A stretch of DNA of 64,000 nt, from positions 186,001 through 250,000 of the forward strand of contig JAOADA010000003.1 in NCBI GenBank assembly GCA_026417555.1, read 5' to 3'. Below are positions 25,869 through 42,891 of this stretch, in pieces. The stretch's first letter is position 1. Every line of letters starts with the position of its first letter. The notes below the pieces were generated by a model. The model did no database searches. It had not been told where the DNA came from and saw only the letters and a list, made by a program, of their open reading frames with translations. The translations under genes were made by a program, and so were the position numbers. Source of the DNA: Brevinematales bacterium. GTDB lineage: Bacteria; Spirochaetota; Brevinematia; Brevinematales; Thermospiraceae.

Positions 25869-26637
25869 TGATGATACCCCTTTTTTCAGCCTTTTCAACA
25901 AAATGAACAAAATGGGCTACCAGGGGATCCGTAGCCATTGGCTTCATTTGGGAGAGAGCCTCTTTCAAAGAAAGACCGCTATACAGGATCCGATAAAGCT
26001 CTTTGAGCATCGTTCTCTGTTCCTGGGTGAATCCCCGACGTCGAAGCCCCACCACATTTAAACCATGGGCTACAGCTGGACTCCCATCACAAAGAACATA
26101 CGGTGGCACATCCTGCACCACCTTGGTAAGCCCTCCCACCATCGCATAAGCCCCTACTCGACAGTGCTGATGGACTGCAGAATTCCCCGACAAAAAGGCA
26201 AAATCCTCCACCTCTACATACCCTGCCAAAAGACAACCATTCGCCAAAACCACATTTCTCCCCAATTTTGCATTGTGAGCAACATGGGAATTGGCCATAA
26301 GAAAACAACCATCACCCACAATGGTTTTCTCCCCCTCACCGCCCCGAACTGGAGTATGGACTGTCACATACTCTCTCAACACACAGTTTTCTCCAATCTC
26401 TACAAGTCCAGGGGTCCCATCAAAAGAGTAATCCTGGGGTGGTGTCCCAAGAGCTGCCCCAGCATAGATTTTGGTGTTTTTGCCAATAGTCACCCATCCT
26501 GTGAGATGAACAAAAGGCCCAATCTCACACCCATCCCCCACGGTAATCTTCCCGTCCAACACGGCATAGGGATGGATTGTCACCCCTTCTCCCAAAACCA
26601 CCTCTGGTCCAATAACTGCTGTCGGATGGATGCTCAT
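25855..26637 (-). CDS. lpxA: Acyl-ACP--UDP-N-acetylglucosamine O-acyltransferase
   Basis: First enzyme of lipid A synthesis. 260 residues with left-handed beta-helix hexapeptide repeats from the start (IHPTAVIGPEVVLGEGVTI and on). The catalytic His lies in NSHVAHNAKLG (around His121). GTPPQDYSFDG is the UDP-GlcNAc block. A helical C-terminus follows. It overlaps lpxB by 14 bases and the STAS gene by 4. Organisms of several spirochaete genera lack this pathway, so its presence narrows the host. Confidence 0.95.
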   Translation of the reverse strand: MSIHPTAVIGPEVVLGEGVTIHPYAVLDGKITVGDGCEIGPFVHLTGWVTIGKNTKIYAGAALGTPPQDYSFDGTPGLVEIGENCVLREYVTVHTPVRGGEGEKTIVGDGCFLMANSHVAHNAKLGRNVVLANGCLLAGYVEVEDFAFLSGNSAVHQHCRVGAYAMVGGLTKVVQDVPPYVLCDGSPAVAHGLNVVGLRRRGFTQEQRTMLKELYRILYSGLSLKEALSQMKPMATDPLVAHFVHFVEKAEKRGIISASE

Positions 26638-27140
26638 TTTTGAAACCTTTCAAGTTCTTTTTTTAGCATTTCTTCGACGAGACGAAAACGACGTCGATTT
26701 TGGGGATTCACCTCCATCAGATCCTGATGGGACTGGAGAAGAATACGAATCGACTCCTCTGTTTTTTCAAGACGCTGAGCCAACTCCTCCGTATATTCGA
26801 CGTTTTTGAGTTGGGTTTCTAGCTTCATGGGGAGAAGATCCTCAAGCCCCATGGTGACAAAAATTTCTATCACCTTTTGAGAAGGATTGAGAATAAACAA
26901 TTCCCCCTTTTTCTCTTTTTTCATTTTCTTCTGCAGAGAAACAATCACCCCAATAAACGAACTGTCCAGATACTGGGTTTCAGAAAGATCAAAGTACAAG
27001 GCCTCAAGCTCATTCTTGTCAAGTTTCTGAGAAAAGGTCTCAAAAAGCTCCGTGGAATACTCAAGCGTCCCTCTTCCAATGACCTTGACCACATACACAT
27101 GCCGCTCTACAACACCTACATACACCTTTGAATTTTCCAT
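26634..27140 (-). CDS. STAS-domain protein (anti-sigma antagonist-like) with C-terminal coiled coil
   Basis: A 168-residue protein. Residues ~10-110 fit a STAS domain; the switch-site region reads TQYLDSSFIGVIVSLQK, with a Ser in the position phosphorylated in SpoIIAA-type proteins. The C-terminal ~50 residues are charged and helical (RLEKTEESIRILLQSHQDL), probably a coiled coil. Overlap with lpxA (ATGA) suggests coupling. STAS proteins work with anti-sigma kinases and SpoIIE phosphatases, and two of the latter are in this window. Its own partner is not adjacent. Confidence 0.75.
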   Translation of the reverse strand: MENSKVYVGVVERHVYVVKVIGRGTLEYSTELFETFSQKLDKNELEALYFDLSETQYLDSSFIGVIVSLQKKMKKEKKGELFILNPSQKVIEIFVTMGLEDLLPMKLETQLKNVEYTEELAQRLEKTEESIRILLQSHQDLMEVNPQNRRRFRLVEEMLKKELERFQK

Positions 27141-33272: not shown

Positions 33273-33300
33273 TTGACAACAGGAAAAAAAACCTTATAAT
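33273..33300 (+). promoter_or_regulatory. Consensus promoter of the ABC-LuxR regulator gene
   Basis: TTGACA (33273-33278), 16-base spacer, TATAAT (33295-33300). Start codon at 33331; no good SD is near it, so translation may be weak. Confidence 0.8.
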
Positions 33301-33330: not shown

Positions 33331-34287
33331 ATGAGGAAAACCATTTTAACACTTGAGCATATCTCTCTCACTTTAGAACACGCTCTTGTTATTGATGACC
33401 TCTCCCTTTCTCTCAGAGAGGGAGAACTCTATTATCTTATCGGTGATAGAAACAGTGGCAAAAGTGCTCTGGCATGTATCCTGAGAGGAAATATTCCTCG
33501 GAATGCCTATGAGGGAAAACTTTTCTTGGGCTCCAAAGATATCTCCTCTCTCTCTTCCCGGCAACGAGAAACCCTAGGATTAAGGGTTCTTTCACAGAAA
33601 TGGGCATTTGTGCCAGGAATGACTATCGCTGAAAATCTTTTCCTAGGAAATGAAATCCACAATGTAGGTATTGTCCGGTGGAATAAGATTTTCAATGAGA
33701 CCCAGAAAATCCTTGAGGAAATTCAGTGGAATATCTCTCCGTCTCTTCTGTTAAAGAACATCCCCAAGGACAAACTCTACCTCGTTTTTCTGGCCAAAGG
33801 CTTTCTCAATCCTACCCACGTTTTGGTAATTGATGAGGCTTTTGCTTTGCTCGATATGTATGGTGAAAATCAAAAACGTCTCCTCTCTATCCTCTCGACT
33901 CTGAAAGCAAGAGGGGTGGCCATTCTCTATTTCCACCATAAAATAGACGCAGTTATGGAAATAGCGGATAGGGTTGCCATCCTCAAAGAGGGGAAAATTA
34001 TCCACGAATCTGATGCCAGTCAAACCGTACCAGAAAACCTTGTGTATAAACTCTTAGGAGAAGTGGCAGAAAATCCAGAGATTCCTCCCTCAGTGATAAA
34101 AAAGTATAATCTCACCCGTCGAGAAGTAGAGATCATGAAACTGATCTTAGAAGGCATGAATGCACGACAGATCAGTGAAACCCTCTACATCTCTCTGCCT
34201 ACTGTGAAAACCCATATCTACAACATCTACCAAAAAACCGGTGTCAAAAACCGACTTGCTCTTGCCCGTCTTTGTTCATTGAAATAA
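33331..34287 (+). CDS. Fusion of a XylG-like ABC ATPase domain with a LuxR-type DNA-binding domain
   Basis: A 318-residue protein. Residues 1-235 align by eye with the N-terminal ATPase of XylG in this same window, including MTIAEN-x-LGNE followed by a conserved W-N block. Walker A is GDRNSGKS (38-45), the Q-loop Gln is near 89, and Walker B is VLVIDE (164-169) with the Glu kept. The D-loop is LLD and the H-loop His is 203. The ABC signature (GSQQ in XylG) is replaced by KDKLYLV around 146-152, so classical ATP-sandwich hydrolysis is doubtful. Residues 259-318 form a GerE/LuxR helix-turn-helix (LTRREVEIMKLILEGMNARQ ... TVKTHIYNIY). It is probably a transcription factor that may sense nucleotide or contact the sugar permease. 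It converges with the lyxose isomerase gene, 9 bases apart. Confidence 0.8.
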   Translation: MRKTILTLEHISLTLEHALVIDDLSLSLREGELYYLIGDRNSGKSALACILRGNIPRNAYEGKLFLGSKDISSLSSRQRETLGLRVLSQKWAFVPGMTIAENLFLGNEIHNVGIVRWNKIFNETQKILEEIQWNISPSLLLKNIPKDKLYLVFLAKGFLNPTHVLVIDEAFALLDMYGENQKRLLSILSTLKARGVAILYFHHKIDAVMEIADRVAILKEGKIIHESDASQTVPENLVYKLLGEVAENPEIPPSVIKKYNLTRREVEIMKLILEGMNARQISETLYISLPTVKTHIYNIYQKTGVKNRLALARLCSLK

Positions 34288-38653: not shown

Positions 38654-39850
38654 CTACGATTTCTTTCTTGTTCTCACGTCCACCCAAACAGCCAGAAGCA
38701 GGATAAGCCCCTTGACAATATATTGAAATGTAATATCAAGGTTCATCAGACTCATCCCATTGTCAAGACTGGCCATCACAAGTGCCCCTATCACCCCTCC
38801 GACAATGGTACCTTCTCCCCCCATAAGACTCGTACCACCAATCACCGCTGAGGCAATTGCATCGAGTTCGGCATTTTGACCTGCTGACGTTGTAGCTGCA
38901 TTCAAGCGAGCTGTGTACACAATACCCGCCACCGCTGTCAGTAATCCCATCAACATATAGAGAAGCATCACATTCCTGGCAATATTGATACCAGAGAGAC
39001 GGGAAGCCTCCGCATTACCCCCAATCGCATAGAGATGCCGACCAAAAACCGTGTTGTTTGCTACAAAGGTAAAAAGCAGCGCAAGCACCATGACCAAAAT
39101 AATCGAATAAGGCACACCAAGATAAATAATCATAATCCCATAAAAAGCAGCAATCACCACGGAAATAAGAAACATCTTAAGAATTTGATATTTCATGGGA
39201 AGAACATGAAAACCATATTTTTGTCTGTCCCGACGGACCTTCATCTCAAAAAACCAGTACATCACCACACTAAAAACCATAAGATACAAACTAGTATCAT
39301 GAAAAGGAAGTGATCCGTTGATCTTAGGAAGATACGCCTGCCCAATTGCTTTAAAAGTATTTGCTGCCTCGGCAGGAGCCATCTCTAACCCTTGGGTTTG
39401 TCCACCAGTAATTCCAATAATAGCCCCACGAAAGGCTAGCATACTTGCAAGGGTCACAATAAACGCTGGCACCTTCTGATAAGCAATCCAGAAACCATGC
39501 CATGCCCCAATAGCTAGTCCCACAAGAAGCGTCACCACAACCGTTGGTAAAGGTGACCACCCCGCACGAATCATAAGAATAGCTGCCACGGCACCACAAA
39601 ATCCCATCACAGAACCCACAGAAAGATCAATATTCCCCGTAACGATAATAAGCACCATACCAATAGCCAAAATTGCTGTTGTCGCCGTTTGAACAAAGAG
39701 ATTGGAGAGATTCCTCGGTGTCAAAAAAATAAACCCGGTCAAAAAAGAAAAAATAATCCATATCCCCAAAAGCGCAATAATCATCGTATACTGACGGATA
39801 TTCTTACGAATAGAGTGGGTGATAAGCTCCCACAAAGAGGTGTGTTCCAT
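38654..39850 (-). CDS. xylH: Pentose ABC transporter permease, XylH-type
   Basis: A 398-residue inner-membrane permease of the BPD_transp_2 family with about 10 hydrophobic segments. Marks are [22 protein letters not shown] near residue 65 and the EAA-like loop [10 protein letters not shown] plus [18 protein letters not shown] toward the end. These are typical of xylose/ribose permeases, and the length (~390) fits XylH rather than RbsC (~320). SD AGGAGG precedes the ATG at 39850; the longer frame is not needed. It follows xylG by 32 bases. Confidence 0.88.
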
Positions 39851-39882
39851 AAGTGATCCTCCTTTTCCTGTTTTCGATTCCT

Positions 39883-41415
39883 TCAACATGCCACCGGAGA
39901 TTCTCCTATCCCACCGGTCGCATAATACATCACCGTTTCCTGGGTTGCCCGTGAAGCATCCAGTTCTCCTGTAATTTTTCCCTGATGGATGACCAATATA
40001 CGGTCACTCATTCCAAGAAGCTCCGGGAGTTCTGAACTGATCATCACCACACAAACTCCCTCATCTATGAGGGCATTCATGAGATTATAGATTTCATATT
40101 TTGCACCCACATCAATACCCCGGGTTGGTTCATCCAGGAACAGAACTTTTGGCTTAGTGAGAAGCCATTTTCCAATAATCACTTTTTGTTGGTTTCCTCC
40201 ACTCAAATTTCTCACCTCTTGTTCAATGGTTGGGGTTTTTACTCGAAGTTTCTGAACATAGTATTGTGTTTGCTTGATCTCTTCATTTTTGTTAATCACT
40301 CCCCACCTTGCCAATGAGGCAAGACTTGCCAACGTCATGTTGCGCTTCACATCCATTCCGAGAACAAGCCCATAGCGTTTTCTGTCCTCAGAGAGCAAAC
40401 TTATACCATGGCGAATCGCATCATCAGCAGAACGAATCACAATCTTTTGTCCATCAAGTCGTATTTCTCCTGACACCACTTTTCCCCACACTCCAAAAAG
40501 ACTCATCACCAATTCCGTACGACCGGCTCCCATGAGCCCTCCGAGCCCCAAAATCTCACCTCGACGAACCTCAAAACTCACATTATCACAGACTTTCCTT
40601 TCCCCATCAGGATCATACACTGTCCAATTGCGTACTTCAAGCACAACTTCCTTTGGCTTATGAGAGACACGCGGATAAACATTCGTAATTTCCCTCCCAA
40701 CCATATGACAGATGAGACGATTCTCATCAAAATTCTCTTTTCTATCTGTGATAATCGTCCTTCCATCTCGAAGAACTGTAATAGTATCGGCAATCTCCAA
40801 CACCTCCGGTAACCTGTGAGAAATAAAAATACAGGTCACCCCTTGGGCTTTTAGCTGACGAAGGATTCCAAGAAGTTTTTCTGATTCTGTCTCAGTAAGG
40901 GCTGCCGTTGGTTCATCAAGGATAAGAATAGAGGCATTTTTCGAAAGAGCTTTGGCAATTTCTACCAATTGCTGAGAGCCGACCCCCAAATCCCCTACCA
41001 TCGTTGCAGGACTCAAAGGCAATCCCACCATCTTGAGCAAATCCTCAGTTTTTTTGTAGGTTTCGTTCCAATTGATGATACCGTTTTGAACATTCTCATT
41101 ACCAAGATAAATATTTTCGGCAATCGTCATCTGTTTGATAAGGGTGAGTTCCTGATAAATAATCGCAATCCCCGCCTTTTCACTATCCCTAATATGAAAA
41201 AAACGCCTCTCCTCCCCATACACAACGATGGTCCCCTCATACGTTCCATAAGGATACACCCCACTCAGGACCTTCATCAACGTGGATTTTCCTGCCCCAT
41301 TTTCTCCCACAAGAGCATGAATCTCTCCCCTTTTCACTTGAAAAGTAACCCCATCAAGAGCTCTTACACCAGGAAACTCTTTGACGATGTGTTGCATCTC
41401 CAATGCATATTCCAT
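39883..41415 (-). CDS. xylG: Pentose ABC transporter ATPase, XylG-type (two ABC domains)
   Basis: A 510-residue protein with duplicated ATPase domains. The N domain has GENGAGKST, signature LGVGSQQ and ILILDEPTAAL. The C domain has a degenerate Walker A (GLMGAGRTE), the signature LSGGNQQ and VLFLDEPTRGID. This asymmetry is normal for sugar importers of the Mgl/Xyl/Rbs group. The start at 41415 has SD AAGGAG. The N domain is the visible relative of the ABC-LuxR regulator 6 kb away. Confidence 0.92.
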   Translation of the reverse strand: MEYALEMQHIVKEFPGVRALDGVTFQVKRGEIHALVGENGAGKSTLMKVLSGVYPYGTYEGTIVVYGEERRFFHIRDSEKAGIAIIYQELTLIKQMTIAENIYLGNENVQNGIINWNETYKKTEDLLKMVGLPLSPATMVGDLGVGSQQLVEIAKALSKNASILILDEPTAALTETESEKLLGILRQLKAQGVTCIFISHRLPEVLEIADTITVLRDGRTIITDRKENFDENRLICHMVGREITNVYPRVSHKPKEVVLEVRNWTVYDPDGERKVCDNVSFEVRRGEILGLGGLMGAGRTELVMSLFGVWGKVVSGEIRLDGQKIVIRSADDAIRHGISLLSEDRKRYGLVLGMDVKRNMTLASLASLARWGVINKNEEIKQTQYYVQKLRVKTPTIEQEVRNLSGGNQQKVIIGKWLLTKPKVLFLDEPTRGIDVGAKYEIYNLMNALIDEGVCVVMISSELPELLGMSDRILVIHQGKITGELDASRATQETVMYYATGGIGESPVAC

Positions 41416-41502: not shown

Positions 41503-42507
41503 TTATTTTGTCTTGTACACTTGCTCCCTTTTCAGATAGCCACTTTCAATCAACACCTTATCTATATTGGATTTGTCCACCACATACGGTGTGAGAAGTA
41601 CAGAAGGAACATCAATCTTGTTGTTATTAACCTTGCCATTGATTTGATCAGCAATACTCTCCTTCTTGGCAAGTTTAATAGCCAGTTCAATGGCCTTGGC
41701 ACCAAGCAATCGAGTATCTTTAAAGATAGTCATGGTCTGCGTCCCTTCCACGATACGAATAGCAGCAGCAAGCTCGGCATCCTGACCGGTAATAGGCACC
41801 TTCCCAGCAAGCCCTTGGGCAGCAAGAGCCTGAATACATCCACCAGCTGTCCCATCGTTAGGAGCAAGAACAGCATCAATCTTGTTTTTGTTGGCCGTGA
41901 GCGCCTGTTCCATGAGTTTCTGGGCTTCAGCAGGCTGCCAATCTTTTACCCATTGATCCATAACAATCTTGATCTGGCCCTTATCTACCAGGGGTTGGAT
42001 ATATTTCATAGCACCCTGACGGAAAAGTTTGGCATTGTTATCCGTAGGAGAACCAGCGAGCACCACATAGTTTCCTTTGGGTACAAGCCGGGTAATATAC
42101 TCACCCTGCAATTCTCCTACTTTTACATTATCAAAAGAGAGATACACATCCACCTCACAGTCGAGAACAAGACGATCATACGAAATAACGGGAATCCCAG
42201 CTTTATGAGCCTTTTCCACAATAGTAGCTGCACTGCTTGCATCATGGGGAGCCAGAATCAACACCTGAATTCCCTGAGCAATCAGGTTTTCACATTGGGC
42301 CACTTGTTTGGCAGCATCATTATCGGAAATCTGAACACGAAGATCTACCCCAAGCCTTTTGGCCTCTTCTTGCATCTTAATTTTATCTCTCACCCATCTC
42401 TCTTCTCTTTGAGTGGGAAGAGAAAGTCCCACACGAATTTTCTGTGCAAATGTTATTGTCGTGACTACAAAAGAAATTACCACTACCAAACCCAATATTC
42501 TTTTCAT
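41503..42507 (-). CDS. xylF: D-xylose-type periplasmic binding protein
   Basis: A 334-residue sugar-binding protein with a signal peptide (MKRILGLVVVISFVVTTITFA, cut near 21). The mature part fits peripla_BP_4: RVGLSLPTQREERWVRDK, ISDNDAAKQVAQCENLIAQG, ILAPHD, ISYDRLV, VLAGSPTDNNA and VLAPNDGTAGGCIQAL, all XylF-like, with ITGQDAE near the ligand site. The ATG at 42507 has SD AGGAGG. It binds xylose or a related pentose (lyxose possible given the neighbouring isomerase). It opens the xylFGH operon. Confidence 0.92.
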   Translation of the reverse strand: MKRILGLVVVISFVVTTITFAQKIRVGLSLPTQREERWVRDKIKMQEEAKRLGVDLRVQISDNDAAKQVAQCENLIAQGIQVLILAPHDASSAATIVEKAHKAGIPVISYDRLVLDCEVDVYLSFDNVKVGELQGEYITRLVPKGNYVVLAGSPTDNNAKLFRQGAMKYIQPLVDKGQIKIVMDQWVKDWQPAEAQKLMEQALTANKNKIDAVLAPNDGTAGGCIQALAAQGLAGKVPITGQDAELAAAIRIVEGTQTMTIFKDTRLLGAKAIELAIKLAKKESIADQINGKVNNNKIDVPSVLLTPYVVDKSNIDKVLIESGYLKREQVYKTK

Positions 42508-42643: not shown

Positions 42644-42661
42644 AAACGCTTTTTTGCGTTT
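42644..42661 (-). promoter_or_regulatory. 5'-end hairpin or operator at the xylF promoter
   Basis: AAACGC and GCGTTT flank six T (plus-strand reading), a perfect 6-bp inverted repeat a few bases after the predicted transcript start. CAC/GTG outside it could extend the stem. It is either an RNA stabiliser or a repressor site. Confidence 0.45.
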
Positions 42662-42672
42662 GTGTCGGCTTT

Positions 42673-42700
42673 ATTGTACACCCTCCGTAAAAAGAGTCAA
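42673..42700 (-). promoter_or_regulatory. sigma70 promoter of xylFGH
   Basis: Minus strand: -35 TTGACT (42695-42700), 16-base spacer, -10 TACAAT (42673-42678). The leader to xylF is about 160 bases. Confidence 0.7.
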
Positions 42701-42891
42701 TACGGAAAACGTATGATTTTGTGTAGAATATTCTCTCATACTAAAGAATGATGCCTCTATGATTGTTCATACTTTTGGATGAGAATCCTTTCGCCCCTCC
42801 GTAAGAAATACACCGTCTTTCCTTCCTGCCTTAAGAAATTTCCATCACTATACTATACTCTTCAAGAGATCTCCAAAACAAACGTGTTTTT

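Follow-up and report, generated by a model that had tools for sequence, protein, structure and literature searches.

Results

Fusion gene and importer locus

The window, that is, the whole stretch of 64,000 nucleotides analysed here, encodes a 318-residue protein in which a nucleotide-binding domain (NBD) of the ABC type is joined to a LuxR/GerE helix-turn-helix (HTH), next to the genes of a CUT2-type sugar importer. The features are as follows.

33273..33300, plus strand: TTGACA-N16-TATAAT promoter of the ABC-LuxR fusion, conserved across three genomes of the genus
33331..34287, plus strand: ABC-LuxR fusion gene, 318 aa, identified by domain matches and by purifying selection relative to the G026 copy
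33343..34065, plus strand: CUT2-type NBD (NBD1-like), residues ~5-245, signature lost; Walker A 38-46, Q89, Walker B 163-169, H-loop 203
34102..34278, plus strand: LuxR/GerE HTH, residues ~258-316, identified by Pfam match and model helices
34885-37206, minus strand: dCache-HAMP-SpoIIE phosphatase with a C-terminal TPR, within the importer cluster
38654..39889, minus strand: XylH/GguB-like permease
39883..41415, minus strand: XylG/GguA-like tandem-NBD ATPase
41503..42507, minus strand: xylF-like sugar-binding protein
42673..42700, minus strand: core promoter of the importer operon, TTGACT-N16-TACAAT
42697..42716, minus strand: putative operator 3, TCATACGTTTTCCGTATTGA, with an exact left arm and an imperfect right arm, overlapping the -35 box
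42736..42751, minus strand: putative operator 2, TCATTCTTTAGTATGA, conserved in the genus promoter alignment
42767..42782, minus strand: putative operator 1, TCATCCAAAAGTATGA, conserved in the genus promoter alignment

The open reading frame and its two domains were found as the initial annotation had described them. The Pfam scan returned ABC_tran (PF00005; residues 22-172, 44.1 bits, cut-off 25) and GerE (PF00196; residues 260-314, 58.8 bits, cut-off 23.5) and no further domain above cut-off, hence neither a STAND NTPase nor a TPR sensor of the MalT type; the strand opposite the reading frame is closed by many stops. The top NCBIfam models for residues 1-243 are of the XylG, GguA, AraG, and RbsA type, and the likeness to the XylG of the window, first seen by eye, amounts to 30% identity over 239 residues with NBD1 of that ATPase, the MTIAEN..LGNE block included. 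The protein is nonetheless without the hallmark of a CUT2 subunit, having one NBD in 318 residues as against two tandem NBDs in about 500, and its PRK13549 score of 154 bits is below the equivalog cut-off of 699. Structure prediction with AlphaFold2 (pLDDT 84.4, pTM 0.71) gave an ABC fold that extends to residue ~242, followed by a helical HTH beginning at residue 253 (helices spanning 263-316), the PDB neighbours of the model being ordinary ABC ATPases, for example LptB and MJ1267 (TM 0.77-0.87 by target length). The window genome has a single gene of this fusion type, and other LuxR-type HTH genes are also present.

The importer genes form a minus-strand cluster, tightly packed head to tail in the order xylF-xylG-xylH-glgC-spoIIE-small cupin, toward which the fusion gene is convergent. 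The distance of 6 kb given earlier is correct for xylG but understates the proximity to the importer, as 10 bp separate the end of the fusion from the cupin gene, the last of the cluster. An apparent STAS-like protein is encoded at 26634-27140. The xylose-type label of the importer stood only in part: its ATPase passed the PRK13549 model, but the TIGR02633, xylF, and GguB models remained below cut-off, and xylose isomerase was not found in any of the six genomes carrying a LuxR fusion, in searches whose controls were positive. With one xylose model passed and no isomerase in six genomes, the system should not be named a xylose importer, and xylose as its substrate appears doubtful.

Distribution and selection

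A profile built from the fusions was searched against 393 Spirochaetota genomes, yielding six full-length copies, namely those of the window genome, G026 (75% identity), G018, and G027, and two in G099 (G099a and G099b; the latter, in the second fusion-importer operon of that genome, is at L106:9324-10298). A seventh copy, in Ch60/G014, is split by a 4-base frameshift (L009/L109:4048-5011). The fusions scored <=1e-136, whereas the best ordinary ATPases, which were XylG NBD1s, scored 1.7e-85 or weaker and ended near residue 247. No fusion was found among 395 genomes of a single class, a second sample that overlaps the first in part, and no further ones in the families of G018 and G027; over the total of ~790 Spirochaetota genome look-ups in these two overlapping samples, the ABC-LuxR design is rare and patchy among the genomes sampled. 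A genome-contig scan with short exact peptides of the window was able to yield no more than close relatives and unrelated LuxR proteins, a viral-contig scan gave two matches to the HTH only, and the top matches listed by a plasmid tblastn search were apparently ordinary sugar ATPases. The tree of the ATPase domains has long branches and fits one origin or several.

Between the window and G026 copies, pN is 0.16 and pS is 0.76, the HTH being more constrained (pN 0.05) than the ATPase domain (pN 0.19). Across the fusions the recognition-helix region TVKTHI..IYQK is near-invariant, whereas the ATPase domain drifts. Both halves of the frameshifted Ch60 copy show low pN, so that its frameshift is either recent or an assembly error.

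The link to sugar importers, on which the initial annotation had staked its reading, holds across genomes, as all fusion copies adjoin importer genes. The convergent arrangement of the window recurs in G026 and Ch60. In G018, G027, and both loci of G099, the genes for the fusion, a sugar-binding protein, a tandem-NBD ATPase, and a permease follow one another on one strand, the fusion thus lying directly upstream of the importer operon in 4/4 distant copies.

Putative operators in the importer promoters

The importer promoters of three genomes of the window's genus, when aligned, contain three conserved dyads, two of them TCATnCnnnnGTATGA-like and the third, TCATACnnnnnnCGTATTGA, over the -35 box; the second copy in G026 has one further change. 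The third is also the weakest of the window sites, with 5 mismatches in strict register. The consensus of the putative operator is TCAYMC-N4-GKRTGA. In the gap between the fusion and the binding-protein gene of the distant genomes, a dyad stands against the -35 box in each case (TCATCCGAAAGTATGA-TTGACA in G027, TCACCCATAAGTGTTA-TTGACA in G099a, TCATTCTCTAAGGTGA-TTGACA in G099b, and TCACCCATCAAGGTGA-TTGATT in G018), with a second copy upstream. Altogether, 7/7 fusion-linked importer promoters have 2-3 dyads each, usually abutting the -35 box, and in the same scan dyads were absent from 21 importer loci in genomes without a LuxR fusion. The fusion's own promoter has a conserved core of the TTGAC(A/G)-N16-TATAAT type and no dyads.

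The motif was derived from the fusion-linked promoters themselves, and shuffle tests on them are therefore not independent; the stronger, semi-independent evidence is the genome-wide rarity of the dyads, their transfer from the genus to G027, and the fusion-less controls. Over the 2.04 Mb of the window genome, exact TCATNCNNNNGTATGA has 2 matches, which both fall in the promoter of xylF (42736-42751 and 42767-42782), and this sequence, read from the window's genus, matches once exactly in the 209-bp gap of G027, next to TTGACA. Likewise, the sole exact match to TCAYMCNNNNGKRTGA in the whole of G099 is at a fusion-linked importer promoter. The broader pattern with one mismatch allowed occurs at 71 places in the window genome and, being so common, cannot define a regulon. 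A separate palindrome, AACGCAAAAAAGCGTT (AACGC-N6-GCGTT; window 42645-42660, minus strand), lies just downstream of the importer -10 box, is identical in the three genomes of the genus, and could serve as a further operator or form a hairpin in the leader.

ATP-site residues

The window fusion keeps Walker A (GDRNSGKS), the Q-loop (Q89), Walker B (VLVIDEA), and the H-loop (HH), as had been read from the translation. Its signature region is LKNIPKDKLY, not LSGGQ; the loss is real, but the weight placed on it was too great, since the 46 XylG NBD1s compared (leaving out the SpoIIE fusion of G027 described below) have mostly LGVGxQQ or close variants and no true LSGGQ themselves. The homologues, to which the initial annotation had looked for an answer, are divided: the signature is lost in the window, G026, G099a, and G099b copies, but signature-like motifs are kept in G018 (LSFGEKQ) and G027 (LSLGEQQ), the two that are without the H-loop histidine present in the other 4/6. 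The P-loop is missing in G099b. Judged from these residues, catalysis is clearly not a conserved property of the family, although ATP binding may still matter because Walker A and Walker B are retained in 5/6 fusions and the Q-loop in 6/6.

In the window XylG, NBD2 has GAGRT as its Walker A yet carries an LSGGNQQ signature, with which the NBD of the fusion could in principle complete an ATP site. For comparison, RbsA has one of its two ATP sites degenerate, and its stoichiometry is given as RbsA-C2-B (PMC11466899).

Across the fusions, 17 residues of the ATPase domain are invariant, of which 7 cluster at the Q-loop/lever positions 86-113 (P=0.001). In ABC importers, this region is turned toward the permease. 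The residues conserved in XylG are retained fairly evenly over the regions of the NBD, so that docking is not proven by retention alone, nor need retention of the EN..(F/L)G block mean docking, as this block is shared by ABC ATPases at large. The uneven erosion of the ATP-site residues, together with the persistence of the fold and the Q-loop region, speaks for docking on the importer rather than for ATP hydrolysis.

ABC domains fused to a SpoIIE phosphatase

In G027, a 634-aa protein composed of an ABC domain and a SpoIIE phosphatase is encoded directly after xylH (L108:13797-15701). A full-length relative in G381 (L150:9297-11249) and another in G285 that is cut by the contig end (L151:10075-10966) are both encoded directly after a permease gene, and all three lie in CUT2 importer operons. 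In this family, other residues stand at the P-loop, Walker B, and H-loop positions, from which normal ATP binding by its ATPase domains is not to be expected. The occurrence of such domains, without a usable ATP site, in importer operons supports a docking role for copies of the importer ATPase.

Discussion

The proposal of the initial annotation, that an ABC-ATPase domain tied to a XylFGH-type importer has been turned into a transcription factor, is strengthened by the genomic link and by the conserved putative operator. We regard the fusion, with a probability of about 60%, as a one-component transcription factor that uses a single CUT2 NBD as its sensor and controls the adjacent CUT2 sugar-importer operon; from gene order and promoter sequences, it is very probably a local regulator of the importer genes. 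In the first step of the predicted mechanism, the LuxR domain would bind the TCAYMC-N4-GKRTGA dyads in the importer promoter, a step that we consider highly likely. The bound fusion would then, with good probability, activate the importer operon, because each of the four distant promoters has a dyad bordering its -35 box on the upstream side, which is the class II position, and more copies further upstream; repression would also be suited by the -35 and -10 boxes of the importer promoters, which are near consensus. In the third step, to which we give slightly less than an even chance, the ATPase domain might sense the importer through contact with XylH, on which it would dock, or through pairing with XylG, such that the idle or assembled importer would hold the factor, and a change in the state or amount of the importer would free or re-orient it.

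The last step would be a one-protein version of the holding of MalT by MalK, and the MalK-MalT system of E. coli, in which MalK of the idle importer holds MalT (PMC10427625), is the nearest functional precedent. There, an importer ATPase subunit controls a LuxR-type regulator of the importer's own genes, as its derivative would in the fusion; however, MalK and MalT are two proteins, and MalT, which belongs to the STAND ATPases, has an inducer site of its own, whereas the fusion is one chain without STAND or TPR.

A free-standing ATP switch, in which two fusion NBDs would dimerise with ATP and pair their HTHs on the dyad, reading ATP/ADP without ever touching the importer, is in our view unlikely. 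It would make use of the Walker motifs and the Q-loop, and of the H-loop where it is kept, and it would account for the need of LuxR HTHs for dimers and for the dyad form of the putative sites. The scattered losses of signature, P-loop, and H-loop described above nevertheless speak against it, and the switch offers no general reason why a derivative of the importer's own ATPase should be found at the genes of that importer. The NBD could instead be a relic that provides solubility or dimerisation, the fusion then regulating constitutively, to a degree given by its own amount. This would agree with the fast drift of the ATPase domain relative to the HTH and with the want of a catalytic set conserved across the family, but we think it quite improbable, as the fold, the Q-loop, and the lever positions stay invariant at ~30% identity, the NBD is under purifying selection, and a second output domain has been joined to the same kind of NBD in the same kind of operon. 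There is little likelihood, too, that the dyads are the target of a different regulator and that the fusion has its role elsewhere: candidates exist among the other LuxR-type HTH genes of the window genome, and the AACGC-N6-GCGTT palindrome lies near the start site, but the dyads follow the fusion at every linked promoter and are missing at the fusion-less importer loci. Finally, the notion of a sequencing artefact joining two genes, or of a pseudogene, to which the 4 extra bases of the Ch60 copy might lend colour, can be dismissed, because the gene is full-length in independent assemblies (G018, G027, G099 twice, and the single-contig G026) and pN is far below pS, the homologues refuting it in practice; these sequence comparisons indicate that the fusion is a real gene under selection.

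Returning to the fusion as a one-component regulator with an NBD sensor, the parallel with the ATPase-SpoIIE proteins suggests that the ATPase domain is a plug able to bear different outputs. We tentatively raise the possibility, which we think somewhat less than probable, of a general device in spirochaetes, whereby decoy importer-ATPase domains that have mostly been released from hydrolysing ATP would plug into the importer and bring signalling outputs with them, either a LuxR HTH or a SpoIIE phosphatase. If so, the transporter itself would become the receptor.

Bacterial regulators are known that derive from sugar-binding proteins (LacI) and from sugar kinases (ROK), and a regulator made from an importer ATPase would add a further route beside these. 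The LacI family, whose effector domain is homologous to periplasmic binding proteins (PMC4052901), resembles the fusion in being made from a part of a sugar importer, but the part re-used in the fusion is the ATPase, which does not bind sugar. Compared with the CUT2 ATPases (XylG, RbsA, and GguA), to whose NBD1 its N-terminal domain is homologous, the fusion has one NBD instead of two, an eroded ATP site, and a C-terminal HTH. The ABC NBD-LuxR architecture was not described in the literature searched, the scope of which left out many subscription journals. A single small protein of this kind, with its predicted operator, would allow tests of transporter-to-gene signalling, for which the two-protein MalK-MalT system is the best-known case.

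One-component regulators of the LuxR/GerE type, including membrane-anchored ones, share the HTH family of the fusion, but their sensors are membrane domains and not an ABC ATPase. Among the LuxR HTHs found that most resemble the one in the fusion, several belong to proteins with 5-8 predicted membrane helices (L012, L017, L018, L026, L054, and L057), and others (L011 and L013) to proteins of ~900 aa resembling periplasmic-propeller sensors.
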